A DNA stretch of 64,000 bases from Bdellovibrio reynosensis (lineage in GTDB: Bacteria > Bdellovibrionota > Bdellovibrionia > Bdellovibrionales > Bdellovibrionaceae): contig NZ_CP093442.1 of assembly GCF_022814725.1 (NCBI RefSeq), forward strand, positions 1,054,001 to 1,118,000, in the 5' to 3' direction. The notes below the pieces were generated by a model, which saw only the letters and a list, made by a program, of their open reading frames with translations, searched no databases and was not told where the DNA came from. Numbering within the stretch: position 1 is the first letter of the stretch; each line of letters opens with the position of its first letter. The position numbers were made by a program, and so were the translations under genes. Below, piece by piece: positions 4,357 through 19,803 of this stretch.

Positions 4357-7300
4357 ATGACTATGAAACATCTAATCACTGGAACGTCCCTTGTTGGTTT
4401 TTTGATATTCGCTGCAAGCTTTGCCAATGCTTCGCCGCAAGAACTTACCTATCAAGGTCGAATTATTAAATCAGATGGTACTCCGCTTGAATACAATCAG
4501 GTGAGTTTTCAATTTGAAATCACCAGTCCAAACGGACACTGTGTGGTATATCGAGAACAAGTTGATTCCATTGACATGACTAATTCTGGCGGTGTGTTTG
4601 ATGTTCCAATTGGTGGCGGAACGCAAAGTTATCCGAATACGGGGACTTTTAAACTTTTAGATTCTTTTAATAACTTGGCCTCTTTTGCTTGTGACGGTGG
4701 GTCTACTTACAACGCCGCAGCTGGCGATCTACGTCGTTTGCGCGTGCGCTTTAACGATGGCACTGGTTGGAAGACGATTTCCCCTGATAACGTGATCCGT
4801 TCTGTTCCTTATGCGGCCCATTCACTTTCTTCAGATAAGCTTGGTACAAACTCTCCTAGTGATTTTGTTTTGAAATCTGCGGTGACGACATGTCCTGCGA
4901 ATAGTTTTTTAACTTATGATGGCACTTCGTTTTCCTGTGCCGGTGTTGCGGGCGCAAGTGGTGGTACTGTTACCAATGTCACTTCCGCAAATGCTTATGC
5001 GACTGTGACGAATAACACCACCTCCCCTGTTATTACCTTAAATGTCGGAACCGCGGCAAATACCCTGGCAGCTGGGAATGATGCACGCTTCACTGATGCG
5101 CGCACTCCGACTGGAAATGCAGGCGGAGATTTAAGCAGCACTTATCCGAATCCGACCGTTGCAAAAATCCAAGGCGTTGCTGTTTCTGCGACAGCTCCGA
5201 CCTCTGGGCATTTTTTAAAGTTTGACGGTACTAATTGGTTATCTGCAGCCGTTGCAATTGGTGATGTTACGAATTTAACTTCGACATTAGGAACATACTT
5301 AACTACAACAGCTTTTAATACTGCTGTCGGAAGTGCTAACTGCGCTGCTCACCAAACTCCTTATTGGAATTCTGTGGCTGGGGCCTTTCAATGTCAGGCG
5401 ATCAACGTATCTGTTGCTGGCGATGTCAGCGGTACGATTGGCGCAGTGGCAGTAAATAAAATTAAAGGCATTGAGGTTGATACAACGGGGCTAGCTAACA
5501 ACCAAGTCCTTAAATATGACGGAACTAAGTTTGTTGCGGCTAATGATGTTTCTTCTGGCGGAACTGTGACCAGTGTCGCTACGGGTACGGGGCTTTCTGG
5601 TGGTCCTATTACTGGAACTGGTACAATTTCGTTAGCAAATACTTCGGTGACCGCTGGTTCCTATACTCGCGCTAATATCACTGTGGATGCCCAGGGTCGT
5701 TTGACTGCAGCGAGCAATGGTGCTGCGGTTAGTTTAACTGCTGATGTTAGTGGAATTCTGCCGGTGGCAAATGGCGGTACAGGTATTTCTACAGGTGGCA
5801 GTGCGAATCAAGTTTTGAAATGGGATGGTGGCACTAGCAAGTGGGCTCCGGCGTTTGTTAAATTAAGCGAACTTACTAATGCTTTGGGTGGAAGTGCTTT
5901 CAACGTTGCTGGTTGTACAGCAGCCCAAACCATGAACTGGAGTTCTATCACTGACAAGTTTGAATGTCAGAGTATCGCGATTGCCAACACTCAAGTTTCA
6001 GGCTTGGGAACTGCTTCAACGAAAGCTGCTGGCACCGCGGCTAATGAAGTACTGTTATTAGATGGCAGCGGAAGACTTCCTGCCAGTGCACTTCCTTCTA
6101 CATTGGGGCAATGGGGTGTGTCTGGTACAAAACTTTTTTATGATGATGGTCCTATCGTTGCTGGTGGCTCTGCCACTACCTATACAGGAACTGGCCATCC
6201 GTTCATCGTTAAAGGTGATGCTGGTCAATACGCAGGTCTGATCATGGATCGTGGGAATAGTCTTGCTACTATGTACACCAATGGCTGGGATTTCGGGCTT
6301 GGTGAATGTACTGACACTACTTGTTCTGCGGCAACGGATATTCTTTATACCGACATGACGACCAATCGAATCGATCTTGGTATGGGTGGTTCAAGCAATG
6401 AGCTTACGATCTTGGCTTCCGGAAATGTTGGTATTGGTTCTAATTCCCCTTCTTTTAAGTTAGATGTGCAATCATCAGACGCTTTTCAACAACGTCTTTT
6501 CCACGCTTCAAATACCGCTTCAAACGGAGCCGCGCTGATGATGACTCGCACCCGAGGAACTGTTGGGACTAACTCGGCTGTGCTTTCTGGCGATACCTTA
6601 GGTGGTATTTACTTCCGTGGTCATGATGGTTCTGGCACTGGAACTACGACTGCAGCTATTGAAGTCACGGCTGAAGAAAATCATTCTTCAACCAATCGCG
6701 GCTCTAAGATGATCTTTGAAACGACGAAGAATGGCGCCGCTACCCGCCTTGAAAGAATGAGAATTGATTATAATGGACATCTGGGGGTTGGAACCACTGC
6801 ACCTTATACTCAGTTAGAAGTTGCAAATTCCAACGACACGGCCACATATCCTTACATTACAATCAACAACAAAGGTACAACCACTAAAAGAACTGGAATC
6901 ACTTTTAGAGCTGCCAACGTCCCTCAATATGAAATGGGGATTGATGCAAGCACCAACAATTCTCGTAACTTTTATATTTACGATTCAACGACGTCGACCC
7001 ATCGGTTTAATATCGACGAATTAGGACGCGTCGGTTTAGGTGCTATGCCTGGAAGCATGTATGACAAACTGACCGTGAACGGTGGCGTTCGCGTTCTAAA
7101 AGGTCAACCTTCAGGCGATGATGGTGGTGCTGGCTTTGCTTTCCAATCGGATGGCGATACGGGAATGTTCGCGATCGGCGGTAATGCGAACTCAGGTAGT
7201 GATGTGATCTTTAAAACAGATAATTCTGAAAGATTAAGACTTTTCTATACGGGCGGGGTTCAGGTCGTTGGAAGTCTCTACCCTTCTACAGATGCCACAG

Positions 7301-7746
7301 TTAACTTAGGAGGCTCCGGCAATCGTTGGAACACCGTTTACGCCTCTAATGGAACTATCCAAACTTCTGATGAGCGTTTGAAAACTGAAATCCAAACTGT
7401 GGATTTGGGTTTAGATTTCATTAACTCCATTTCGGCAGTTAAATACCGTTGGAAGTCAGAAGGTGCTGAAGGAAAAATCCACTATGGATTTATCGCGCAG
7501 GATTTGAAAAAGAACATCGAAGATAAAACACGCGCCCCTGCTACAGCAACCGGCATCTTGGATAAAAGCAGTGAATACTATGGGGTCAGCTATAGCGAGT
7601 TGATTTCACCAGTTGTAAAAGCGATTCAGGAACTTTATCAAAAATATGTTTCCCAAGAAACTCGCCTTAATGCCCTTGAAAAAGAAAATCAGGAACTAAA
7701 ATCTTATCTTTGTCAGAAGGATAAAGAAGCGCCTTTCTGCAAATAA
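4357..7746 (+). CDS. Mosaic trimeric fibre protein with C-terminal endosialidase-type chaperone (peptidase S74)
   Basis: A 1129-residue exported fibre. After a signal peptide (KHLITGTSLVGFLIFAASFANA) comes a compact head beginning QELTYQGRIIKSDGTPL, then about 850 residues of low-complexity, Gly/Thr/Ala-rich, repeat-like sequence typical of phage tail-fibre shafts (TFTDARTPTGNAGGDLSSTYPNPTV-like segments). The end is an intramolecular chaperone domain: TSDERLKTEI near residue 1003, HYGFIAQDL, GVSYSELISPVVKAIQELY and a terminal coiled coil. The S74 family self-cleaves before the Ser of SDxRxK (Ser1004), freeing about 126 residues after trimerisation. The architecture matches the mosaic adhesive trimer fibres that Bdellovibrio uses to recognise prey. 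No Shine-Dalgarno precedes either ATG (4357 or 4363). An intrinsic terminator follows. Confidence 0.85.
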   Translation: MTMKHLITGTSLVGFLIFAASFANASPQELTYQGRIIKSDGTPLEYNQVSFQFEITSPNGHCVVYREQVDSIDMTNSGGVFDVPIGGGTQSYPNTGTFKLLDSFNNLASFACDGGSTYNAAAGDLRRLRVRFNDGTGWKTISPDNVIRSVPYAAHSLSSDKLGTNSPSDFVLKSAVTTCPANSFLTYDGTSFSCAGVAGASGGTVTNVTSANAYATVTNNTTSPVITLNVGTAANTLAAGNDARFTDARTPTGNAGGDLSSTYPNPTVAKIQGVAVSATAPTSGHFLKFDGTNWLSAAVAIGDVTNLTSTLGTYLTTTAFNTAVGSANCAAHQTPYWNSVAGAFQCQAINVSVAGDVSGTIGAVAVNKIKGIEVDTTGLANNQVLKYDGTKFVAANDVSSGGTVTSVATGTGLSGGPITGTGTISLANTSVTAGSYTRANITVDAQGRLTAASNGAAVSLTADVSGILPVANGGTGISTGGSANQVLKWDGGTSKWAPAFVKLSELTNALGGSAFNVAGCTAAQTMNWSSITDKFECQSIAIANTQVSGLGTASTKAAGTAANEVLLLDGSGRLPASALPSTLGQWGVSGTKLFYDDGPIVAGGSATTYTGTGHPFIVKGDAGQYAGLIMDRGNSLATMYTNGWDFGLGECTDTTCSAATDILYTDMTTNRIDLGMGGSSNELTILASGNVGIGSNSPSFKLDVQSSDAFQQRLFHASNTASNGAALMMTRTRGTVGTNSAVLSGDTLGGIYFRGHDGSGTGTTTAAIEVTAEENHSSTNRGSKMIFETTKNGAATRLERMRIDYNGHLGVGTTAPYTQLEVANSNDTATYPYITINNKGTTTKRTGITFRAANVPQYEMGIDASTNNSRNFYIYDSTTSTHRFNIDELGRVGLGAMPGSMYDKLTVNGGVRVLKGQPSGDDGGAGFAFQSDGDTGMFAIGGNANSGSDVIFKTDNSERLRLFYTGGVQVVGSLYPSTDATVNLGGSGNRWNTVYASNGTIQTSDERLKTEIQTVDLGLDFINSISAVKYRWKSEGAEGKIHYGFIAQDLKKNIEDKTRAPATATGILDKSSEYYGVSYSELISPVVKAIQELYQKYVSQETRLNALEKENQELKSYLCQKDKEAPFCK

Positions 7747-9239: not shown

Positions 9240-9929
9240 ATGGAATTCTTATTATCACTTGGTCGCGGCTTCACTTCTGCTGATGCTATTTGGATGTGGG
9301 CTATTTTAGCGGCACAAATCGTTTCTATCGCTATTATTGCTGAGCGTGCGATGGCTCTTTATGGTTCTCGTAAACCGAACCAAAAAGAAATCGCGAAGGT
9401 ATTAGCTGAAGATATTAAAGCTGGTAACCTTGAGAAAGCTCTTCGCCGTTCATTGCAAATCGGTGCTCGTGAGCCAATGGGTGTTGTTGCATCTGCTGGT
9501 ATCCAAGCAGCTATCGATCTTGGCGGCAAAGAAGAAATCCAACTTAAAATGGATGAAGTTCTATTAGAAGAAGCAACTCGCGTAGAAAAACGCATTGGCT
9601 TCCTTGCGATGTTTGCAAACGTTGCAACTTTATTAGGTCTATTAGGTACGATCACAGGTCTTATTCACTCTTTTGCGGGTATCTCGAACGCAAACCCTGC
9701 TGAAAAAGCGACGATTCTTTCTCAAGGTATTTCCCTTGCGATGAATACGACAGCTTACGGTTTGATCGTGGCAGTTCCTGCTTTGATTATGTATGCGGTT
9801 CTTCAAAACCGTGCGACTCGTTTAACGGATGACCTTAATAAAGGTGCTTTGAACATCTTTATCCAACTTGGTTTCCATTACGAGCCAGTTTCTAACAAGA
9901 AAGATGTTTCCTCAGTTTCTGGGAGATAA
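9240..9929 (+). CDS. MotA/TolQ/ExbB-type proton channel subunit (AglR-like)
   Basis: A 229-residue inner-membrane protein with helices at about 16-35, 120-145 and 171-190 and the large cytoplasmic loop between the first two, the topology of TolQ/ExbB/AglR. It uses the proton motive force together with TolR-type partners to drive an envelope machine. ATG at 9240 is chosen because a perfect GGAGG lies eight bases before it; an in-frame GTG at 9225 overlaps that site. Two TolR-like genes follow within six bases. With TPR, TonB-like and beta-barrel genes downstream, this resembles the Agl-Glt gliding modules of Myxococcus and Bdellovibrio more than a simple Tol-Pal system, since no tolB or pal is present. 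Confidence 0.85.
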   Translation: MEFLLSLGRGFTSADAIWMWAILAAQIVSIAIIAERAMALYGSRKPNQKEIAKVLAEDIKAGNLEKALRRSLQIGAREPMGVVASAGIQAAIDLGGKEEIQLKMDEVLLEEATRVEKRIGFLAMFANVATLLGLLGTITGLIHSFAGISNANPAEKATILSQGISLAMNTTAYGLIVAVPALIMYAVLQNRATRLTDDLNKGALNIFIQLGFHYEPVSNKKDVSSVSGR

Positions 9930-9931
9930 TT

Positions 9932-10390
9932 ATGACTAGCGGTAGCGGCAACGATAAGTTGAATTTTGAATTAAACATTCTGCCGATTCTCGACATTTTG
10001 TCGGTTCTGATCTGCTTTCTATTATTGACAGCAGTTTGGATTCAAATCGGGACCCTGGATACAAGACAGGCCATCGGCGACAACTCCACGGCGGGTGCTG
10101 TTAATCCCCCGTCGCTATGGATTTCTGTGAACACGCAAGGTGCGGTTCAACTTTCTGCTCGCGATCTTCCTAATAAGAAGACCTATGAAGTTGAGATCAA
10201 AGCCTCCAACAACAAAGTGAACTTGGATGCTTTGGCTGAAAAACTTCAAGCGCTGAAAGAGAAATTTCCAGATTTGAAAACCGGCGTGGTTCGTCCTGAA
10301 GCGCAAGCTTCTTACGGCGATGTGATTCGTATCATGGATAAACTTAAACAGTTTCAATTTGAAGGAGTGGGATTATCCCCACTTGGGTAG
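9932..10390 (+). CDS. TolR/ExbD-type channel subunit 1 (AglQ/AglS-like)
   Basis: A 152-residue protein with one transmembrane helix (about residues 13-38, NILPILDILSVLICFLLLTAVW) carrying Asp21, the position of the proton-conducting aspartate of TolR/ExbD/MotB. A periplasmic domain of about 110 residues ends LKQFQFEGVGLSPL, as in ExbD. It pairs with the TolQ-like protein encoded two bases upstream. GGGAG precedes the ATG. Having two different TolR-like genes in tandem is typical of Agl systems (AglQ and AglS) rather than of a basic Tol system. Confidence 0.85.
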   Translation: MTSGSGNDKLNFELNILPILDILSVLICFLLLTAVWIQIGTLDTRQAIGDNSTAGAVNPPSLWISVNTQGAVQLSARDLPNKKTYEVEIKASNNKVNLDALAEKLQALKEKFPDLKTGVVRPEAQASYGDVIRIMDKLKQFQFEGVGLSPLG

Positions 10391-10395
10391 GACTT

Positions 10396-10890
10396 ATGAA
10401 AACCTCGTCCTTTACAAAAGTAAATCAAGTTCGCTCCCCGCTTTCAGACATTCAAAGTTTGAAACCAGGGATGAAGTCTAAAAAAGGTAAGTTCCAGGAT
10501 TTAGCTTTGGCACTTCCTTTGACTTCTTTGATTGATGCTTTCTCAATCATTGTTATTTATCTGCTAATCGGTACTCAGAACTCTGGGATGGAAACAACCA
10601 TTCCTTCTAAAATGAGTTTACCGACGGCTTCTCATAGCGTTGGGATTGAAAAAGAAACTCCGATCTTGAGCATTCAAAAAGGCGTTTACCGTTTGAATGA
10701 CGAGGTTGTTCAAAAGAAAGACCTTGGACAAAAGCTTGCTGAGTTAAAAAAGAAGTCAGAAGAAAAATCTGTAGCACTCTTGGTTCAGGCCGACCAAGAG
10801 ATGGCGTACGAAGACTTGGATCCTTTGCTTAAGGCAAGTTCCCTGTCTGGTATCGAAAAAATGAAATTTGCGGTAGTGCCTGCACAATGA
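10396..10890 (+). CDS. TolR/ExbD-type channel subunit 2 (AglS-like)
   Basis: A 164-residue relative of the preceding protein with a longer basic cytoplasmic N-terminus (about 38 residues), one helix (LALPLTSLIDAFSIIVIYLLIG, with Asp47 in the channel position) and a periplasmic ExbD-like domain containing VALLVQADQEMAYEDL. It presumably forms a heteromeric stator with the TolQ-like and first TolR-like proteins. An AGGA site precedes the ATG. Its stop overlaps the next start by four bases (ATGA). Confidence 0.85.
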   Translation: MKTSSFTKVNQVRSPLSDIQSLKPGMKSKKGKFQDLALALPLTSLIDAFSIIVIYLLIGTQNSGMETTIPSKMSLPTASHSVGIEKETPILSIQKGVYRLNDEVVQKKDLGQKLAELKKKSEEKSVALLVQADQEMAYEDLDPLLKASSLSGIEKMKFAVVPAQ

Positions 10891-13847
10891 AAACACTAAA
10901 CGGAATCCTTATCATTGCTCTTTTAGGTGGATCTTTGGTCACATCGTCGGCTTTTGCCGAGAAAATGAATGCAGAGACTCAGGATCTCGTTATTAACAAA
11001 ATGGAACGCGTCCTATCGACTTTGGAGCGTTCTGATTCAGCTTGGCTACCAAGCCAGCAACGTCTAGCTGATTTGCTTGCAGAGCGCGCTCGTACGCGTT
11101 TTATGCTTGAAATTGAAGCTAACTGTGAAGGTTGCAAAGGATCTAAAGACGACCGTCTTAAGGCCGTTAAAATCTATGAGAACTTACTTAAAGAAGTTAA
11201 GTTAAACGAACACGGTCCGATCCTTTTCCAATTGGCCCATCTTTATGAAATGGCTGGCCAAACGGATAAAGCTATTAATTTATATGAAGAAATCATCCGC
11301 GATGCGAAGAAGAAATCCATTCTTCCAGCTATCGTGTCACGTTCCCACGCAAGCCTTGGCGATTTGTTATTTTCTAAATCTCGTTTTGCTGAAGCGAAAA
11401 CTCATTACCAAATCGCTTTAAAAGATGCTGGTCTTGAAAATCGCGTTTTGACCATCTATAACTTAGCTTGGTGTGAATTCAACCTTGGCAACTTAAATGC
11501 TGCTATCGTTATTTTTGAAAACCTGTTGAAAGATCCATCTAAAATCGTTCGTGATACCGAAGAAGGCAGCAAATACGATGCTCCTTTCCACACGGATGTT
11601 TTGCGCGATCTTGCTACTTTCTATTCCAAAAAAGACATTACTAAAAAAGAAATCGATACGTTTGAGAATTTGGCTCCGGCTGATAAACGTAAAGGTTTGA
11701 TGCTTTATTTTGCTAAAGAAGCAGACCGTATTGGTCAAAAACAGGCGGCCCACGATATCTTAAACCGCTACTTAGCTGATTCTTCTTTGACTAAAGAAGA
11801 GCGTATCGAGGCCTCTGTTCAATTAGCACAAATCAACTATGACCGTGGTCAAACTTCTGCCTCCATTGCTGAATTTGCTAAGGCAGCTACGGCTTTACAA
11901 AAAAGCGGTTGTTCTGAAGACAAATGCGCTGAATTCCAAAAAACGATGAAGCGTTATGTAACGGAACTTCATCGTTCTAAGAAACTTAAACCTGACCAAG
12001 ACTTGATGAACGCTTATTTAACTTATAATAAGACCTTCCCGTCTGACATGGAAATGACCCAACGTGGGGCTCAGATCGCGATGGATCTTGGTAACTACGT
12101 TATGGCCGTACAATTGTACCGCACAGTTAGTGAAAGCAGTTCCTTCTCTAAAAAAGAAAGACAAGAAGCTTTACTAAACGAAGTAGCTGCAGCAGAAAAA
12201 TCTGGCAACCCGGCTTTAAAGCGTGAAGCTTACTTGCACTTTATCGATGAAGCTCCGAAAGGTGAAAAGTCTTTTGAAGTTCAATACCAATTGGCTTACT
12301 TAGCTTACGAGCAAAAGCTTTACTCTAATGCAGCCGCTGATTTTGAAGACCTAGCTAAAGATAAAAACGGTAAAGCAGATCTTCGTAAAAAAGCAGCTGA
12401 CCTTTCGTTAGATTCGTTAGCACAAATTAAAAATGAAAAAACTTTGGAAGAACTTGCTTGGGATTACTCTGAGATCTTCCCATTGGCTCGTACTGAATTT
12501 GAAAGTATTGCTCGTAAAAGCTTAATGAACCGTGTTGCCGCAGTTGCGAACAATCCTAAATCTTCGAAGTCTGATCTTAAGTCAGCTTTGAACAGCATGG
12601 ATTCACGTAAATTGCAAAACGCTTCCCAACAAGAAAAAATCCTTTTCTATAATAACCAGGCGGTGCTTGCTAAAAAGCTTGATGAAGAAAAAGTTTATGT
12701 TGGCGCGATCACTTCCCTATTAGCCGTTCCTGGCATCAGCTCAGAACTTCGTGAAAAAAGCCTAGAGCAATTAACTGGTTATTATGAGAAGAAATTAGAC
12801 TTTAAGAACGCTTATGTTACAGCTTTGCGTTTAGAAAACTCTAAGATTTCTGAAAAAGAAAAAGAATTCCGTCTTGGTACATTAGCGGACCTTGCGGGTC
12901 TTGATGCTGCTTCTAAACACTATAGAAGATCTTTAGATGCAGGACTTCGTGGCGAGCGTTCTTTAGTGGTGCGCACTCGTCTGGTTTTGACTTCTGCAAA
13001 TCCAGTTCGTGAATTGAAAGCTCAAGCTCCTGAGTTAAAACAAAAGCCAGCTCTTTTAAACGAGACTGTTCTTTTGGTTTACGCTCAGAATGGCAATGCG
13101 GACGGTTTGAAATCAGTTCTTGATTTAAAAGAAATGCGTAAACAATCGGCGAACCTATTCATTAAAAAACAAGAGTTCTATACTCTGCTACAAAATGAAA
13201 AAGCTAAGATTGCTAAGCACGAGCTAGATTCAAGCAAAGATCGTTTAATGCAAAAGACGATCGAAGAGCGCGTGAAAATGCTTAAAAAAGCAGACCGTCT
13301 TCAAGCAGACAGCCTTGGTTATAAGGATGTGACTGCTCAGATGCTAGCTTTGAACCTGGTTTCTAGTGAAAACGAGCGTATGGTTAAGGACCTTGCTTCT
13401 TTACCAATGCCTCAAGGTTTAACAAAAGCTGAACAACAACAATATATCTCTATTCTTAAAGGCCGTTCTAAGCCGTTCTTGTTGAAAGCTCGTTATGCCC
13501 AACAAAAACAGCAAGAAATCTGGAATCGTTCTTTAGGACTATCACAGACTTTACGTGATTATAAAATCGCTCGCCCAGAGATCCGTAAGCTTTTAGCTCG
13601 TGAATTGACTCTGTTAAATTCAATCCCTGGTAAAGGCCCTATGAAGGACGCTTTAGAGGACACTTTGGATGAGAGACAATTATCGGCACGCGATTTAACT
13701 GCCGCGCGCAAGGTAGTGGCAGAAGACCCTGCTAACGTGCGCGAAATTGAACAATTGAAACAGATTGAGACAAAAATTGGCCATCCACTTATGGCCACTT
13801 ATCTGGAAGCGCGTATAAGCCACTTACAGAAGGGAAATAGCCTATGA
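10887..13847 (+). CDS. Large secreted TPR-repeat protein (GltD/GltE/GltI-like role)
   Basis: A 986-residue periplasmic protein. The signal peptide ends near residue 24 (LLGGSLVTSSAFA). The mature part is almost wholly helical with many tetratricopeptide-like repeats; YENLLKEVKLNEHGPILFQLAHLYEMAGQTDKAINLYEE near 95-135 is the clearest. It is rich in Lys, Glu and Ala with few cysteines apart from CEGC near residue 80. Repeats of this kind scaffold envelope complexes, and Myxococcus Glt machinery contains several such proteins. Which Glt protein it corresponds to cannot be decided by eye. It overlaps both neighbours by ATGA. Confidence 0.75.
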   Translation: MKTLNGILIIALLGGSLVTSSAFAEKMNAETQDLVINKMERVLSTLERSDSAWLPSQQRLADLLAERARTRFMLEIEANCEGCKGSKDDRLKAVKIYENLLKEVKLNEHGPILFQLAHLYEMAGQTDKAINLYEEIIRDAKKKSILPAIVSRSHASLGDLLFSKSRFAEAKTHYQIALKDAGLENRVLTIYNLAWCEFNLGNLNAAIVIFENLLKDPSKIVRDTEEGSKYDAPFHTDVLRDLATFYSKKDITKKEIDTFENLAPADKRKGLMLYFAKEADRIGQKQAAHDILNRYLADSSLTKEERIEASVQLAQINYDRGQTSASIAEFAKAATALQKSGCSEDKCAEFQKTMKRYVTELHRSKKLKPDQDLMNAYLTYNKTFPSDMEMTQRGAQIAMDLGNYVMAVQLYRTVSESSSFSKKERQEALLNEVAAAEKSGNPALKREAYLHFIDEAPKGEKSFEVQYQLAYLAYEQKLYSNAAADFEDLAKDKNGKADLRKKAADLSLDSLAQIKNEKTLEELAWDYSEIFPLARTEFESIARKSLMNRVAAVANNPKSSKSDLKSALNSMDSRKLQNASQQEKILFYNNQAVLAKKLDEEKVYVGAITSLLAVPGISSELREKSLEQLTGYYEKKLDFKNAYVTALRLENSKISEKEKEFRLGTLADLAGLDAASKHYRRSLDAGLRGERSLVVRTRLVLTSANPVRELKAQAPELKQKPALLNETVLLVYAQNGNADGLKSVLDLKEMRKQSANLFIKKQEFYTLLQNEKAKIAKHELDSSKDRLMQKTIEERVKMLKKADRLQADSLGYKDVTAQMLALNLVSSENERMVKDLASLPMPQGLTKAEQQQYISILKGRSKPFLLKARYAQQKQQEIWNRSLGLSQTLRDYKIARPEIRKLLARELTLLNSIPGKGPMKDALEDTLDERQLSARDLTAARKVVAEDPANVREIEQLKQIETKIGHPLMATYLEARISHLQKGNSL

Positions 13848-14113
13848 AATCAGTAATTTCTTTGGCCCTTGTTTTGCTGGTATCAGTAACGACCTTTGCC
13901 GCTGGCAAGAATTCACAAAGCGTGAATCCTGCTGCAGTTAAAAGAGCGAAACTAGGTACTTCCTTTAAGTTTGATGGAAGCGCATTACGCGGTAAATACC
14001 AAAGCTCGATGAATACAGCGGCAACGGTCGAAAACGATAAGTTACTCGAGGATCTTCTTAAAGGCCGTACGCAGTTTGAAGATCGTATCAACGAAGAACT
14101 TGAAAGAAACTAA
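13844..14113 (+). CDS. Small secreted protein of the envelope cluster
   Basis: An 89-residue protein with a signal peptide (MKSVISLALVLLVSVTTFA), cleavage near residue 19-20. The mature 70 residues include GTSFKFDGSALRGKYQSS and a charged helical C-terminus (LLEDLLKGRTQFEDRINEELERN). I do not recognise a family. The start overlaps the stop of the TPR gene (ATGA) and the next gene begins three bases after its stop, so it is firmly part of the operon, probably as a small periplasmic component. Confidence 0.75.
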   Translation: MKSVISLALVLLVSVTTFAAGKNSQSVNPAAVKRAKLGTSFKFDGSALRGKYQSSMNTAATVENDKLLEDLLKGRTQFEDRINEELERN

Positions 14114-14115
14114 TT

Positions 14116-15336
14116 ATGAGCGCAGCTAAACTTCTAATACTAGAAAATACTTTAGGCCAAAAGGTTCGTACTTTTGCTGTTCAAGCAGAAGCGTTGAACC
14201 TTGTGTACTTAAAAGACTCGCGCCGTGTAGAGGCTTTTGCTTCTTTAAATGAACTTGATGAAAACAAAGTGAACTACACTTTGTTGCAACAAATCCAACT
14301 TTCGCAACTTTCTGAAGAAGGTCAATTGCTTCAAGGTTTAGGACGTTTGCGCCTTTACCCAGTTGAAGTGAATAACAGCCCGACTTATGAACTTCGTGAA
14401 GAAGAAGACGAAAAAACTTTAACTACATTAATTAAGAAAACTGGTATTGGTCACTTAGTAGCTGTGCTTTTATTGGTGGGTGGATCTTGGATCTACAATC
14501 AGTATTTTGCTAAAGCCGAAGAACCGGCTTTAGTTACAATCAATATTCCTCAGGAAATTGAAAAAGTTCACCCTGAGGCTCGTCCCCATGTGAAAGTGTC
14601 ACAAACTAAGATCAAACAAACTACTAAGAAGTACAGCCCTAATGCTAAAAAACTTCGCTCTAAGCCTTACCATGTGAATACAGCTAAAGCTAAAGATGTT
14701 CGCCGTGTTGGCGCCTTGGCAGCTTTAGGTGGTTTATCGACAGGTGCTCGTGATGCTGAAGGTCTTGATATGAGATCTCTTAAAAACATCAGAGCAGCAG
14801 GAACTGGCGCTGGTGGCGGTGGCATCGGTAATGCGGGTCGCGGTGGCGCTCGTGGTTACTTACCTGGCAGCGGTTTGATTGCTGGAAGTGCTGGTGAAGG
14901 TGCTCGTGCTCAAGGTGCTGGTGGCTACGGAACTCGTGGTTCTGGTGGCGGTCGCGCGGGCTATGGAAAAATCCCAATGGTTGGTGGCACTTCTGCAGTC
15001 AGTTTACCAATTGATGATGAAGCGACTGTTGAAGGCGGTTTAGACCGCGATCAAATCATTGCGGTTATCAATCGTAACAAAGGTCAAATCATCTATTGTT
15101 ATGAAAAAGGATTGCAAGCTCAACCATCTATCGGTGGTCGCGTCGCAGTTGCTTTCGTGATCGGTGCTTCGGGCCGTATCACCACTGCTAACGTAGCAGA
15201 GTCTTCATTAGGTTCTAGAACTGTTGAAGGTTGCATGTTGTCTAAAATGAAAACATGGCAGTTCCCTCGTCCGGTTGGAAAAGTAAATGTTGATGTTCTT
15301 TATCCCTTCGAACTTATGCGCGTGAGCAGTCGCTAA
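14116..15336 (+). CDS. TonB-like energy transducer with AgmX/PglI C-terminal domain (GltG/GltJ-like)
   Basis: A 406-residue inner-membrane protein: a cytoplasmic domain of about 108 residues, one helix at 111-130 (IGHLVAVLLLVGGSWIYNQYF), a basic linker, a Gly-rich flexible stretch at about 228-285, and a C-terminal domain at 310-403. The last contains NKGQIIYCYEKGLQAQPSIG, GRVAVAFVIGASGRI, VEGCMLSKMKTWQFPRP and VDVLYPFEL, the pattern of the AgmX/PglI C-terminal domain with paired cysteines at about 328 and 373. These proteins link TolQR-type motors to outer-membrane parts in gliding machinery. A cytoplasmic N-terminus could couple it to cytosolic partners. The ribosome-binding site is weak; translation is probably coupled. 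Confidence 0.85.
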   Translation: MSAAKLLILENTLGQKVRTFAVQAEALNLVYLKDSRRVEAFASLNELDENKVNYTLLQQIQLSQLSEEGQLLQGLGRLRLYPVEVNNSPTYELREEEDEKTLTTLIKKTGIGHLVAVLLLVGGSWIYNQYFAKAEEPALVTINIPQEIEKVHPEARPHVKVSQTKIKQTTKKYSPNAKKLRSKPYHVNTAKAKDVRRVGALAALGGLSTGARDAEGLDMRSLKNIRAAGTGAGGGGIGNAGRGGARGYLPGSGLIAGSAGEGARAQGAGGYGTRGSGGGRAGYGKIPMVGGTSAVSLPIDDEATVEGGLDRDQIIAVINRNKGQIIYCYEKGLQAQPSIGGRVAVAFVIGASGRITTANVAESSLGSRTVEGCMLSKMKTWQFPRPVGKVNVDVLYPFELMRVSSR

Positions 15337-15350
15337 AAGGAGTTTTGACC

Positions 15351-16703
15351 ATGAAAACGAACCACGCATTGATCTCAGTTTTATCACTTAGTTTGCTTGC
15401 TGCTGGATGCGGCGAATACTCTAAAAATCCTGTTCAGGATTTAGCAGCTATGCGTGACAACGCAAGACTGGAACTTAAAAAAGGTCCAGACTCTGTTCGT
15501 GAAATCACTAAAGAAGTGATCGTTAAAGAAGACCGCATCGTTAAAATCGAGGAGTCCACTATCAACGGCAGCTTGCTAGTGATCAGCGCTGATGAAGATA
15601 TGGATTTTGAAGAAGGCAAAACCAAACAATATAAAATCCAAGCCCGCGTATTGGATCCTTCTGTAGAAATTAAATTAAACGTTGAAGAAAAGCCTAAAGA
15701 AGTTTCTATCGAAAAATCGACAAAAGAAGCAGACGTTTATATTTTAACTTACACTCCTGCTTTATACACAGTTCCTGCGAACAAAAAGAAACAAAAGCTT
15801 AAAGTTGTACTTAAAGCGGTTGTGACTTCGACTAAAAATGCCGCTGACGCTGCAAAATACGAAGGCCTTGTTCGAACGAAAGAACTTAATTTGACTGTAT
15901 TTAGAACTGAAGATGCTCCTTCTGAGGTTCAAGTTTTAGGCTTGGGCACGCAAGTTTCTGAAGGTTCAATCACTACTTTCTCTGTGACTGCGAAGGTTCC
16001 AGGTACAGATGCAAATGCTCCACAAAAACCTTCTTTAATTGTGACTGCCGATGAGAACCAATCTTCGGCTGGCCAAAGCTTTAAAGACCTTGATGGTTCT
16101 CGCCACATCCCGGCTGATACTAAAGTTGAATACGTTAAGGACTCTGTTTGGAAGTTCACTAAGACTTTTGATACACAAAATATCCCTGTTCAACCTCAGG
16201 TAGGTAAAACAGGTGCGATTTTGCAAAACGTTGATGGAACTTTCGTGCGTGTTGCTTTCCGCGTAGCTTACGATGGTTTACAAACGGCTCCGACAGTTCA
16301 ACGTATTAAGATTGCTTACACTAAACCTATTTCAGCTCCCCGTTTTGACCTGACTTCGATTGGTCAAACTGGTTTAAAAGCGTCCCCTGGTAAAACAGTG
16401 GTTGCAAACTTCACCGTATCTTCTGCGGATGCGCAAGCTGAAGTTAAAGTTGAGTCTCCAGTAACTTCATTGGATGTGAATCCTTCATTAACTTGCGTGG
16501 ACGCTTCAACGGGAGCTAACAAACAAAACTGTACTCTTTCATTGAATGTTTCTTGTGAGACCAAATTAGAAAACTTAAACGGTGACATCACTGTAAATGC
16601 TTTGAGTATTGTTAACGGCAGAAATTCAAATCTAGTTGCTGCTAAAATTAAAGTTGTTGCGACTCAAGACGCGACTCTATGCTCTGCGGAGGCTGCAAAA
16701 TGA
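15351..16703 (+). CDS. Lipoprotein of the envelope cluster
   Basis: A 450-residue exported lipoprotein; the lipobox is LAAGC near residue 19-20 after MKTNHALISVLSLSL. The start at ATG 15351 is preferred because AAGGAG lies eight bases upstream; an in-frame TTG at 15345 would be too close. After a charged helical segment of about 60 residues, the rest looks beta-rich, possibly several Ig-like domains (repeated stretches such as EVQVLGLGTQVSEGSITTFS and ASPGKTVVANFTVSS), ending in a four-cysteine region. No specific family is recognised. It overlaps the next gene by four bases. Likely an outer-membrane or periplasmic component of the machine. Confidence 0.75.
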   Translation: MKTNHALISVLSLSLLAAGCGEYSKNPVQDLAAMRDNARLELKKGPDSVREITKEVIVKEDRIVKIEESTINGSLLVISADEDMDFEEGKTKQYKIQARVLDPSVEIKLNVEEKPKEVSIEKSTKEADVYILTYTPALYTVPANKKKQKLKVVLKAVVTSTKNAADAAKYEGLVRTKELNLTVFRTEDAPSEVQVLGLGTQVSEGSITTFSVTAKVPGTDANAPQKPSLIVTADENQSSAGQSFKDLDGSRHIPADTKVEYVKDSVWKFTKTFDTQNIPVQPQVGKTGAILQNVDGTFVRVAFRVAYDGLQTAPTVQRIKIAYTKPISAPRFDLTSIGQTGLKASPGKTVVANFTVSSADAQAEVKVESPVTSLDVNPSLTCVDASTGANKQNCTLSLNVSCETKLENLNGDITVNALSIVNGRNSNLVAAKIKVVATQDATLCSAEAAK

Positions 16704-17440
16704 GAACTTTAACTCTTCTTTCATCGGCTTTAGTGACTTTCAGTCTTTTAGCAGCACCCGCTTTGGCTTCTTCAACGAAGTCAGCAAAACAAATCAATGC
16801 TAGCCAAGATATCGATACATTGGGTGGCAATAAAGACCTTATGGAAATGGCTACGAAGATTAAATCTGAAAGCCGCTCTCGCATCGTTCAACAACGTATG
16901 GTGGATCGCAACAACACTCTGGAATTCGGTCTATCTTACGGAAGCGTATTTAGCGGGGATGCTTACTTAAAAACTCAAACAGTGGGTTTTCAAGTTGATT
17001 ATCACATCACTCCACGCTGGTCTTTGGGTGCCCGTTACCTTGATTTTGGTTCTACCCTTTCAGCGGAAGGTCAAAGAATTTTTGACGACGCTAGAGCGTC
17101 TTATAATGCTGGTGGCCGTGCGACAATCGTAGATATCGATGCTCCACAAAATGCAACTATGGCTGTTCTAAACTGGTACCCGATTTATGGAAAAACAAGC
17201 TTCCTTGATATGGGTGTAAATCAGTTTGATATCTATCTTCTTGCCGGTGGTGGTTCGATGAACCTTGCTAGCGGCAATACTTCGCTTTTAACTGCAGGTG
17301 TGGGCTTAGGTGCTTGGATCACGAAACACGTTTCAGCTCGTGCTGAAATCCGTATGCAAAAATATGAAGACCAACTAGTCACTGGTGCTCGCAACTTGAA
17401 TACCGTTGTAGGCAGCCTTGGCTTGGGATGGATTTTATGA
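16700..17440 (+). CDS. Outer-membrane beta-barrel protein (GltA/GltB-like)
   Basis: A 246-residue exported protein with a signal peptide (MRTLTLLSSALVTFSLLAAPALA). After about 50 residues it turns into alternating amphipathic strands (NTLEFGLSYGSVFSGDAYLKTQTVGFQVDYHITPRWSLGARYLDF and further) ending VVGSLGLGWIL, as in eight-stranded OmpA-like barrels; porin-like barrels of this size occur in Glt systems. GGAGG seven bases before the ATG at 16700 favours this start over the in-frame ATG at 16679, and 16700 gives the usual ATGA overlap with the preceding gene. Its stop overlaps the next start. Confidence 0.8.
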   Translation: MRTLTLLSSALVTFSLLAAPALASSTKSAKQINASQDIDTLGGNKDLMEMATKIKSESRSRIVQQRMVDRNNTLEFGLSYGSVFSGDAYLKTQTVGFQVDYHITPRWSLGARYLDFGSTLSAEGQRIFDDARASYNAGGRATIVDIDAPQNATMAVLNWYPIYGKTSFLDMGVNQFDIYLLAGGGSMNLASGNTSLLTAGVGLGAWITKHVSARAEIRMQKYEDQLVTGARNLNTVVGSLGLGWIL

Positions 17441-18480
17441 GTAAAATCTTGTTAGCTCTTGCTACCTTTGTTTTAGCTCTTGTTGCTTTTCACTCTCAAG
17501 CAAATGCTGAGACTGTATCTGCGACAGCTTGGGCTAAGGCTTGGGTTAAAAATCTTGAAGATAAAACCACACGCACTTTTGATACTGAAGATGTTGAAAA
17601 AAGCATCATAACCAAATGTGTTGATTGTGATAGTAAAGCTAACCTGAAAAATGCCCGTAAACTTTTTGCTAAGGGTGATTTTGATGCTGCTCTTGCCGCT
17701 TACAATTCTATTCCTCGTGGTGAAGCAAACTGGTTAGCGGCGGTTGAAGAAAAAGGCTGGGCTTACTTCCGTAAAGAAGATTTCGAAAAAGCTTTGAGCC
17801 AAACTAAAACTCTTCTTAGCCCACAATTTGGCGAGATCGTTAATTCTGAGGCTTACTTGTTACAATCTTTAACTCAGTTAAAGATGTGTGACTATAAAGG
17901 TGTCTTCGAAACCCATACGAAGTTTAAAGAAAAACAAAAATCCCGCGTCATGGAAATCCAAAATCTTGCTAAAACGGGCTGGAATGATGGCGTAGCGACT
18001 GTGGTTGCTAAGGCAGATCAGTTCCCGATGAAATTAGAAGACATGACGGATTCAGTTCAGAAGCTTCCGCTTTTGACTTACAAAGACGTTGAATTTCAAA
18101 AGCAACTTTTCCGTTACAAGGCTTCGCTAAAAGCCATCGCCGTTTTAGATGGCCGTCACGAAAAAGTGGTGTCTTCGCTGCAAAAAATCAATGCGAAAAG
18201 TCTTGAGACTTTGAAAGATCGCATTAAAGAAATCGCAAGTACTGAGACAGAAAATAATTTTAAAGTGATTCAAAAGTTGAACCTTGTGGAGGTTGAAGCC
18301 ATCCACCGCGTTCACACTGATTTAGAATTAAGTCAGTCTTTGTTCAAAAAAGGCAATTTCAAAAACGTGGATGACGATCAATTGGTGTTTATGGATGACG
18401 GTCTGCCATGGATTGATGAATTGGATAAGTTTGAAGTTGCGGGGAAAGTGTGTGCTAAGGGGATTAGGAGGAAGATGTGA
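17437..18480 (+). CDS. Secreted TPR-like protein (GltC-like)
   Basis: A 347-residue periplasmic protein with a signal peptide (SKILLALATFVLALVAFHSQANA). It has a CVDC pair near residue 62, TPR-like helices (KLFAKGDFDAALAAYNSIPRGEANWLAAVEEKGWAYFRKEDFEKALSQ) and a long charged coiled-coil-like second half. ATG at 17437 overlaps the preceding stop (ATGA) and is preferred to the ATG at 17428. Position next to a beta-barrel and a lipoprotein recalls the GltA-GltB-GltC group of Myxococcus, but that correspondence is inferred from order and architecture only. Confidence 0.75.
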   Translation: MSKILLALATFVLALVAFHSQANAETVSATAWAKAWVKNLEDKTTRTFDTEDVEKSIITKCVDCDSKANLKNARKLFAKGDFDAALAAYNSIPRGEANWLAAVEEKGWAYFRKEDFEKALSQTKTLLSPQFGEIVNSEAYLLQSLTQLKMCDYKGVFETHTKFKEKQKSRVMEIQNLAKTGWNDGVATVVAKADQFPMKLEDMTDSVQKLPLLTYKDVEFQKQLFRYKASLKAIAVLDGRHEKVVSSLQKINAKSLETLKDRIKEIASTETENNFKVIQKLNLVEVEAIHRVHTDLELSQSLFKKGNFKNVDDDQLVFMDDGLPWIDELDKFEVAGKVCAKGIRRKM

Positions 18481-19715
18481 GAAATCTAATCATCGCTGCT
18501 ATCTATATCGGCGCCTTTTTATTGGTATCTGCCTGCAGCCCAGAGTCAGTTCCTTTGCGTGCTGAAAAACCATTGCATGACGAATTGGTTGTTGTTCCCC
18601 AAACCGAACACGTTCCTGAGCAAACTTTTGAGTGGATCACTGAAGATGGTGGCCAAAGCCAGCTAGAGTTCAATCCTCGCGTAGATATTCTTTTTGTGGT
18701 TGATAACTCTGACAGTATGAAGTCAGCGCAAGAAAATCTTGTTAAAAACATTGATGGCTTCACAGCTAGAATCACTAAAAACAAAATGATCGATTACCAT
18801 ATCGGCGTAATGTCAGTTTGGGATTCGTCTGAGCGTTATGCAAAGGCCAATGCAAACTCTTACCAAGTGGGTGATCTTCGTTTGGTAAAAGGTGGCACAA
18901 ACCAGAACTATCGCTTTGTTACTAAAGCCGACGGTAAAGGTGTTCTTGCCTCTACTTTGAACATCGGTGTTGCCCCTTTTGAAAAAGGCGGACCTGAGGT
19001 TGAAGAAATGTTTTCTCCTTTAGCTGCGGCTATTGAAAAAACAGGTCGTGGTGCTACCAATGAAGAGTTCTTCCGTGACGATGCTCAGCTAGTTGTTGTT
19101 CTAGTGAGTGATGCTGATGACGGCACTAAAGAATTAGATCCAGAACAATTGGCACAAAAGCTTGTTGAGTTTAAAGGTGGCGATGCTAAAAAAGTGTCTG
19201 CTTACGGCGTCCTAGTCCGCGCTAACGATCCAGATCAATATAAAGACTGGGCTTTAAGAATTCATCCTAAGTATCACCCGGAGTGCTTTACTGCAGTTAA
19301 ACAAACTGCAAAAAACAACGGAACTTGTACTGGTTTTGGTCCAGAGCGTTTAGAAAAGTTCATCGTGAAAGCGAATGAAGGCCAAGGTTTGACTCCGACG
19401 CAAATTAGAAACAACCGCATCATGAGCATCGTGAGCCCTACTTTCGGTTCTGACCTAGCAAAGATCGGCTCTGATATCACTGTTAAAACTTTGGAAAAAA
19501 CGATTTTCCTTAGCCAACGTCCTCGCGCTGAAAAGAACGGTAAACTGCAAGTGCGCGTTCGTTACGGAAATCAGTTGATCCCGCAAAGTGCAAACGGTGG
19601 TTGGTTGTACAATCCAGAAGACAACTCGATCCAACTTTCTGGCGACATCGACTATCAATATGTTGAAGGCGCTAGATTCTCGGTTGATTTGATCCCGTTG
19701 AATTTGAAGAAATAA
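18477..19715 (+). CDS. Lipoprotein with von Willebrand factor A domain
   Basis: A 412-residue lipoprotein starting with GTG at 18477 (overlapping the preceding stop, with AGGAGG five bases upstream); the lipobox is LVSAC near residue 20. A vWA domain begins near residue 70 (VDILFVVDNSDSM), with the metal-binding DxSxS pattern intact as DNSDS, followed by LVVVLVSDADDG. Extracytoplasmic vWA proteins bind ligands or partners through a divalent metal. It is the last gene of the ten-gene cluster, so it may be a surface or outer-membrane contact factor. It is followed at once by a structured post-stop element and a strong terminator. Confidence 0.8.
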   Translation: MRNLIIAAIYIGAFLLVSACSPESVPLRAEKPLHDELVVVPQTEHVPEQTFEWITEDGGQSQLEFNPRVDILFVVDNSDSMKSAQENLVKNIDGFTARITKNKMIDYHIGVMSVWDSSERYAKANANSYQVGDLRLVKGGTNQNYRFVTKADGKGVLASTLNIGVAPFEKGGPEVEEMFSPLAAAIEKTGRGATNEEFFRDDAQLVVVLVSDADDGTKELDPEQLAQKLVEFKGGDAKKVSAYGVLVRANDPDQYKDWALRIHPKYHPECFTAVKQTAKNNGTCTGFGPERLEKFIVKANEGQGLTPTQIRNNRIMSIVSPTFGSDLAKIGSDITVKTLEKTIFLSQRPRAEKNGKLQVRVRYGNQLIPQSANGGWLYNPEDNSIQLSGDIDYQYVEGARFSVDLIPLNLKK

Positions 19716-19763: not shown

Positions 19764-19773
19764 TAAAATTTAA

Positions 19774-19803
19774 AAAGCCCAAGTTAAACGCTTGGGCTTT
19801 TTT
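19774..19803 (+). terminator. Terminator of the envelope cluster
   Basis: AAAGCCCAAG-TTAAACG-CTTGGGCTTT with a T-run on the plus side and an A-run before it, so it can act in both directions, serving the ten-gene operon and dtd on the opposite strand. Confidence 0.88.

Follow-up and report, generated by a model that had tools for sequence, protein, structure and literature searches.

A run of ten genes in the genome of Bdellovibrio reynosensis raises the question of what a machine built from the parts of a gliding motor would do in this organism, and at which stage of predation it would be used. The genes occupy positions 9240-19715 (+) of the 64,000-nucleotide stretch that we analysed (the window; positions 1,054,001 to 1,118,000 of contig NZ_CP093442.1), the genome being a single contig of 3,582,323 bp. 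We consider it probable that this operon encodes one proton-driven trans-envelope motor that moves a vWA adhesin and serves around the time of prey entry or inside the bdelloplast; genome comparison suggests, for this copy, an intraprey stage rather than surface crawling.

Nine hits to PF01618 were found in the genome, four of which sit in Agl/Glt-like clusters that we labelled W (the window operon), X (L013), Y (L014) and Z (L012/L034). As a reference we used the genome taken as B. bacteriovorus HD100 (G006), whose PBP4 is identical to the PDB sequence of Bd3459 except for two adjacent residues. HD100 holds all four clusters, at 388-399, 777-788, 1392-1405 and 2272-2283 kb, and each of the 36 cluster proteins tested (ten W, ten X, eleven Y and five Z) finds its reciprocal best hit in the corresponding HD100 cluster. 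The window operon is non-random, as its ten genes are all reciprocal best hits of one HD100 cluster (388,215-398,542) with the order kept, and identities between the two species are 40-82% for W, 48-91% for X, 58-87% for Y and 65-98% for the five Z proteins compared, the most diverged W products being a lipoprotein (40%), the GltC-like protein (53%) and the vWA and GltF-like proteins (58% each). In phylogenetic trees the window copy groups with the HD100 388-399 kb cluster and the genome taken as Pseudobdellovibrio exovorus (G025) is found only in the Z clade, with a long-branch warning on the AglR tree and many X-like copies of other families unplaced in the GltG tree. Published labels place the TonB-like end of Bd0412-0420 at Bd0417-0420 (PMC2797640) and describe Bd0838 as AglS and the last gene of a + strand cluster (PMC6561027), and Bd1483 as a vWA protein adjoined by Bd1481 (aglR) and bd1480 (aglQ) (PMC9140294, PMC2277423). 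Since gene order and strand agree with these labels, we infer that the HD100 counterpart of the window operon is Bd0412-0420, given as Bd0411-0421 in the proteome paper. Two flagellin genes adjoin this counterpart (L035 779-2915), and flagellin-like open reading frames (ORFs) were also seen by eye downstream in kdesi (L027).

The four cluster types differ in content. X (L013) has the same ten genes as W in the same order, its AglR being 52% identical to that of W; in Y (L014) the vWA gene comes first; Z (L012, L034) gives GltC, GltE, CglF and two barrel matches and carries an FHA-bearing GltG, with Glt scores stronger than those of the window operon. A vWA adhesin gene is present in three of the four types, none having been found inside the Z clusters inspected (L034, L036, L041). 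Judged by these matches, it is Z (the Bd0828-0838 type), and not W, that is most like the Myxococcus gliding set: the gliding-type motor of the original prediction is upheld by Glt and Cgl matches in the window, but the closest relative of the Myxococcus set in this genome is the cluster with the FHA-GltG. Z is flanked by kdsC and by an LptC/LptA-like gene, rpoN being close by (L012 9397-12617, L034 9965-10465), and similar-sized genes follow it in HD100 (L036) and in G025 (L041). In Y, Ala replaces the membrane Asp of AglQ in five of five genomes (L014 4027-4632; L037 13844-14401; L065, L070, L071) and AglS keeps its Asp; this cluster would perhaps encode a motor in which a single axle subunit is active.

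As concerns HD100, Lambert et al. reported that the W, X, Y and Z clusters are regulated differently: prey-independent growth raises the expression of X, Y and Z and not that of Bd0412-0420, the W cluster, which shows a 4-7-fold increase at 30 min of predation (PMC2797640). According to the proteome study, the proteins Bd0411-0421 peak at 45 min-1 h, and the proteins up at prey exit include those of X and one W protein, Bd0414 (PMC12546842). For Y, bd1480 is reported as induced on a surface (PMC9140294) and insertions in Bd1481 or Bd1483 as reducing biofilm predation (PMC2277423); a Bd1483 deletion strain is reported to have invaded normally. For Z, an insertion in Bd0838 reduces attachment, killing and rounding (PMC6561027), and Luciano et al. 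named Bd0828-0838 as the best gliding candidate (PMC3169522). The published expression points to early intraperiplasmic use of the window-type cluster.

Using the 986-residue TPR protein of the operon as a probe against 38 genomes, with at least 1089 bits taken as W-type and at least 276 bits as X-like, we found the W type in 22 of the 24 genomes of the window's genus and in none of the 14 of the exovorus genus (that of G025). X-like TPR proteins are present in 14/24 and 5/14 of these genomes, respectively, plus one partial; with such a distribution the idea that X serves exit and is hence present in every invader was dropped. P. exovorus and Candidatus B. qaytius are both described as epibiotic (PMC11656739); the exovorus genus holds both of these known epibiotic predators, which keep cluster types other than W. 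Only a Z-type cluster was seen in G025. The genome taken as Ca. B. qaytius (G059) has Y and Z clusters and a fifth, divergent one, so that a reading in which Y and Z alone are retained by epibiotic species has to be qualified; this fifth cluster (L072 1646-10364) is AglRQS-like, with TPR, GltC-, GltF- and barrel-like neighbours and a vWA gene close by. A search of the phylum for GltG gave some match in 154 of 156 genomes, and GltG proteins scoring as W-type were also found in four genomes of other genera (G024, G035, G038 and G121), one of them, G038, belonging to another family; G038 and G024 fall in the W clade of the GltG tree (98/92), from which G035 and G121 were left out. Since the W type occurs in other genera and in another family, its absence from the exovorus genus is more likely to reflect a loss than a late gain elsewhere.

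Is the window operon really of the Agl/Glt type? The ORF scan of the window gives ten same-strand frames without internal stops, which bears out the gene number originally predicted; a 90-residue length filter leaves nine of them, the tenth being an 89-residue, secreted-looking ORF (13844-14113) in the space that separates the TPR gene from the GltG-like gene. When the likely starts are used, 4-bp overlaps (four ATGA and one GTGA) account for five of the nine junctions and gaps of 2, 5, 2 and 14 bp for the others, so that most genes are joined by overlaps, as had been proposed, and the words "fully coupled" were slightly strong. The tolQ model reaches 78.5 of 221 bits and exbB 62 of 206 bits; among the other uptake models, ExbD_1 gives 24 of 153 bits and tonB_Cterm 26.3 of 27.1 bits. 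Models of TolA, TolB and Pal matched none of the ten operon proteins, and no TonB-dependent receptor match was found in the operon. These comparisons support an assignment to an Agl/Glt-type machine, and not to Tol-Pal or ExbB-TonB. The Agl/Glt-like nature claimed in the original prediction is in line with matches to GltG (1e-37 in round figures), GltC (1.7e-12), CglD (2.7e-6) and, over its cut-off, OMP_myx_plus; likewise, the comparison of models that it called for showed no better match to Tol-Pal or biopolymer-uptake systems and a resemblance of the downstream genes to Glt and Cgl proteins. Its list of parts (one TolQ-like and two TolR-like proteins, an AgmX/PglI protein with a Gly-rich linker, two TPR proteins, a barrel and two lipoproteins) is confirmed by family models and residue counts.

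The motor part, encoded like the whole operon on the + strand, consists of a putative AglR/TolQ-like proton channel subunit of 229 residues (9240-9929; PF01618, 8e-30), which the tree places with the HD100 390-kb cluster, and of two TolR-like proteins, AglQ-like (152 residues, 9932-10390; PF02472, 1.1e-19) and AglS-like (164 residues, 10396-10890; PF02472, 1.1e-19), whose transmembrane stretches PILDILSVL and TSLIDAFSI both retain the membrane Asp, the residue that acts as proton carrier in work on TolR, ExbD and MotB. They are followed by the secreted TPR protein of 986 residues (10887-13847; TPR_2, 1.2e-11), GltD-like by size and place, and by the 89-residue protein, which itself has no family match in our scans and is called GltF/CglF-like through its X-cluster relative: its HD100 ortholog also matches the GltF-like ORF of the X cluster, which in turn matches CglF (NF033764, 1.3e-4). 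The GltG-like, TonB-type protein (406 residues, 14116-15336) has one transmembrane segment, a non-FHA N-terminus, with no FHA match in the domain scans, and a Gly-rich linker at about residues 200-292 (14713-14991). Its match to the GltG model NF033760 (9.8e-38; 130 bits against a cut-off of 650) is confined to the C-terminal part (profile 402-644), where the AgmX/PglI domain NF033768 scores 99 bits with a cut-off of 40. A periplasmic GltC-like TPR protein of 347 residues (17437-18480; NF033756, 1.7e-12, 47 of 450 bits) lies further downstream.

At the outer-membrane end, the operon encodes a lipoprotein of 450 residues (15351-16703; LAAGC lipobox by eye), a beta-barrel of 246 residues of the GltA/GltB type (16700-17440; TIGR04565, OMP_myx_plus, 1.3e-31, 110 bits, cut-off 60) and, as last gene, a vWA/MIDAS lipoprotein of 412 residues with a GTG start (18477-19715; CglD NF033765, 2.7e-6; MIDASAdhsBdello, 2.1e-5). 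The first lipoprotein gave no family match in the model scans; its structure model (predicted local distance difference test, pLDDT, 65) matched 665 PDB chains at E <= 0.001 and, among the 50 matches listed, most were Ig- or cadherin-like with a TM-score by query of at most 0.27, a hint of tandem beta-sandwich domains. The vWA lipoprotein has the motif DNSDS (DxSxS, MIDAS) at residue 76, reaches 4.3e-4 with Pfam VWA (21 bits, cut-off 23.8) and only 23.8 of 700 bits with the Bdellovibrio MIDAS adhesin model NF052240, short of the equivalog score; the D, S and S of DxSxS are invariant in nine of nine aligned vWA proteins of the W, X and Y types. Its AlphaFold model was not used (mean pLDDT 42), and a profile of the nine vWA proteins found nothing better than E 0.58 among solved structures. 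Among 73 GltG-like hits (at least 182 bits) in 59 relatives, 68 have a vWA match within 8 kb (3.6-5.9 kb apart), as do 25 of the 25 that score as W-type. The terminal vWA lipoprotein and the 986-residue TPR protein had both been flagged as unusual; given this count and a gene order that recurs across the order, they are instead standard parts of this operon type. Myxococcus gliding likewise uses vWA lipoproteins, CglB and CglD (PMC4488436, PMC13104615).

If these products form a single complex, AglR and the two TolR-like subunits would make up an inner-membrane proton channel, driven by proton flow by analogy with AglRQS of Myxococcus. From this channel, force would reach the periplasm by way of the Gly-rich linker and the TonB-type end of the GltG-like protein. 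A periplasmic bridge would be built from the TPR proteins together with the GltF-like one, and the barrel and the two lipoproteins would constitute the outer-membrane end, where an exposed vWA lipoprotein may grip a surface. Such a machine would work like the Agl-Glt machine of Myxococcus with its CglB/CglD-type adhesins, the window copy being one of four specialised paralogues and its use most likely lying around prey entry or in movement within the bdelloplast. A bolder extension, which we put forward tentatively, is that an ancestral gliding motor was split in Bdellovibrionaceae into machines that each serve one stage, W being a dedicated in-prey locomotion or anchoring motor lost with the epibiotic shift and the Z attachment type being kept in both known epibiotic species.

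Other functions have to be weighed against an intraprey motor. The part list matches that of Myxococcus gliding, and in the account of Luciano et al. (PMC3169522) Bdellovibrio has four expanded core complexes that may be gliding sets, as would be expected of a general surface-gliding motor used outside the prey with no tie to the intraperiplasmic stage; we regard this as unlikely, the reported surface use being that of the Y type (bd1480, Bd1481/Bd1483) and the rise of Bd0412-0420 at 30 min having no equivalent in prey-independent growth. A TonB-like system that energises transport across the outer membrane, whether uptake or secretion, and thereby feeds the predator while it is in the bdelloplast appears less likely again: the timing and the TolQ, TolR and TonB-type ends would suit feeding, and Lambert et al. 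raised the possibility of uptake or secretion for Bd0412-0420 (PMC2797640), but the operon has no TonB-dependent receptor, Pal or TolB match, the exbB and tonB models stay under cut-off, and the lipoprotein adhesin and the 986-residue TPR bridge are Glt-like. In Myxococcus, Agl motors power the Nfs machine of the spore coat as well (PMC3858216), and the operon might by the same token move a surface polymer or remodel the bdelloplast wall rather than move the cell; the vWA partner near 68 of 73 GltG hits suits gripping better and no polymer genes are present among the flanking genes scanned, and of all these readings we hold this one to be the most improbable.

Several points weigh against the intraprey motor itself. 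No mutant of the Bd0412-0420 cluster was found in the literature examined, and the HD100 locus tags used here derive from the position and order of the genes instead of an annotation. The Glt, CglD and MIDAS model scores are far under the NCBI equivalog cut-offs, and the operon proteins are therefore relatives, not named members, of these families. Two genomes of the window's genus, G003 and G014, drafts of 550 and 320 contigs, lack the W type; both carry an X cluster without a W cluster, through draft gaps or true loss. The contrast with epibiotic predators comes from one genus, and a single loss event may account for it. No clear W-type GltG was found in 47 genomes of family f12, taken as Bacteriovoracaceae, where the best score is 123.8 bits besides one full-length match of ambiguous type in G108 (217 bits). 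Prey invaders belong to Bacteriovoracaceae (PMC11656739); as these invade and seem to be without the W type, W would be no general requirement for invasion.

Around the operon, a terminator-like stem-loop of 13 pairs (19772-19802, +; scan match only) lies just after its last stop; the promoter scan of the window gave fewer sites than shuffled sequence and the Rfam scan no family at gathering score. The flanking genes scanned encode a Peptidase_S74 protein, a 346-residue protein without assignment, IF-3 and threonyl-tRNA synthetase; the first of these, upstream (4357-7746), is a protein of 1129 residues with a C-terminal Peptidase_S74 endosialidase-type chaperone domain.

The HD100 cluster has long been known and is annotated as agl-like, and the window operon is a further member. 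A sorting of the four types against predation mode was not found in the literature searched; a published comparison of epibiotic and periplasmic predators may already contain it. The word "gliding" does not occur in the 2024 comparative-genomics paper (PMC11656739). Which motor, adhesins and force path underlie gliding in Bdellovibrio is described as one of the major challenges still open (PMC13104615), and the way predators get through the outer membrane of their prey as an enigma, with genes yet to be identified (PMC4237445). The orthology sorting of four clusters, of which three include a vWA adhesin gene, indicates the deletion to make for each stage, and it yields a presence pattern already fitted by two epibiotic species.

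Compared with the Agl-Glt system of Myxococcus xanthus, the window operon shares an AglRQS-like motor, a GltG-type C-terminus, a GltA/B-type barrel, a vWA lipoprotein and, by a match under the cut-off, a putative GltC-like protein; it differs by a GltG without FHA, by Glt scores under the equivalog cut-offs and by having no GltE-, GltI- or GltJ-like gene, and its genes form one operon, against three in Myxococcus (PMC3169522). GltI and GltJ are reported as absent in Bdellovibrio (PMC3169522); our search for them was restricted to the operon, where nothing beyond the shared C-terminal domain was found. Bd0828-0838 of HD100 and the Z cluster of B. reynosensis have an Agl/Glt-type motor and envelope set like the window operon, and differ by an FHA-GltG, two barrels and no vWA gene found. 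The X cluster of B. reynosensis is 25-52% identical to the window operon, depending on the gene, and forms a separate clade in the tree; Bd2368-2377, the X type of HD100, shares with the window operon all ten genes and their order. Bd0412-0420 of HD100 differs from the window operon by sequence divergence alone.

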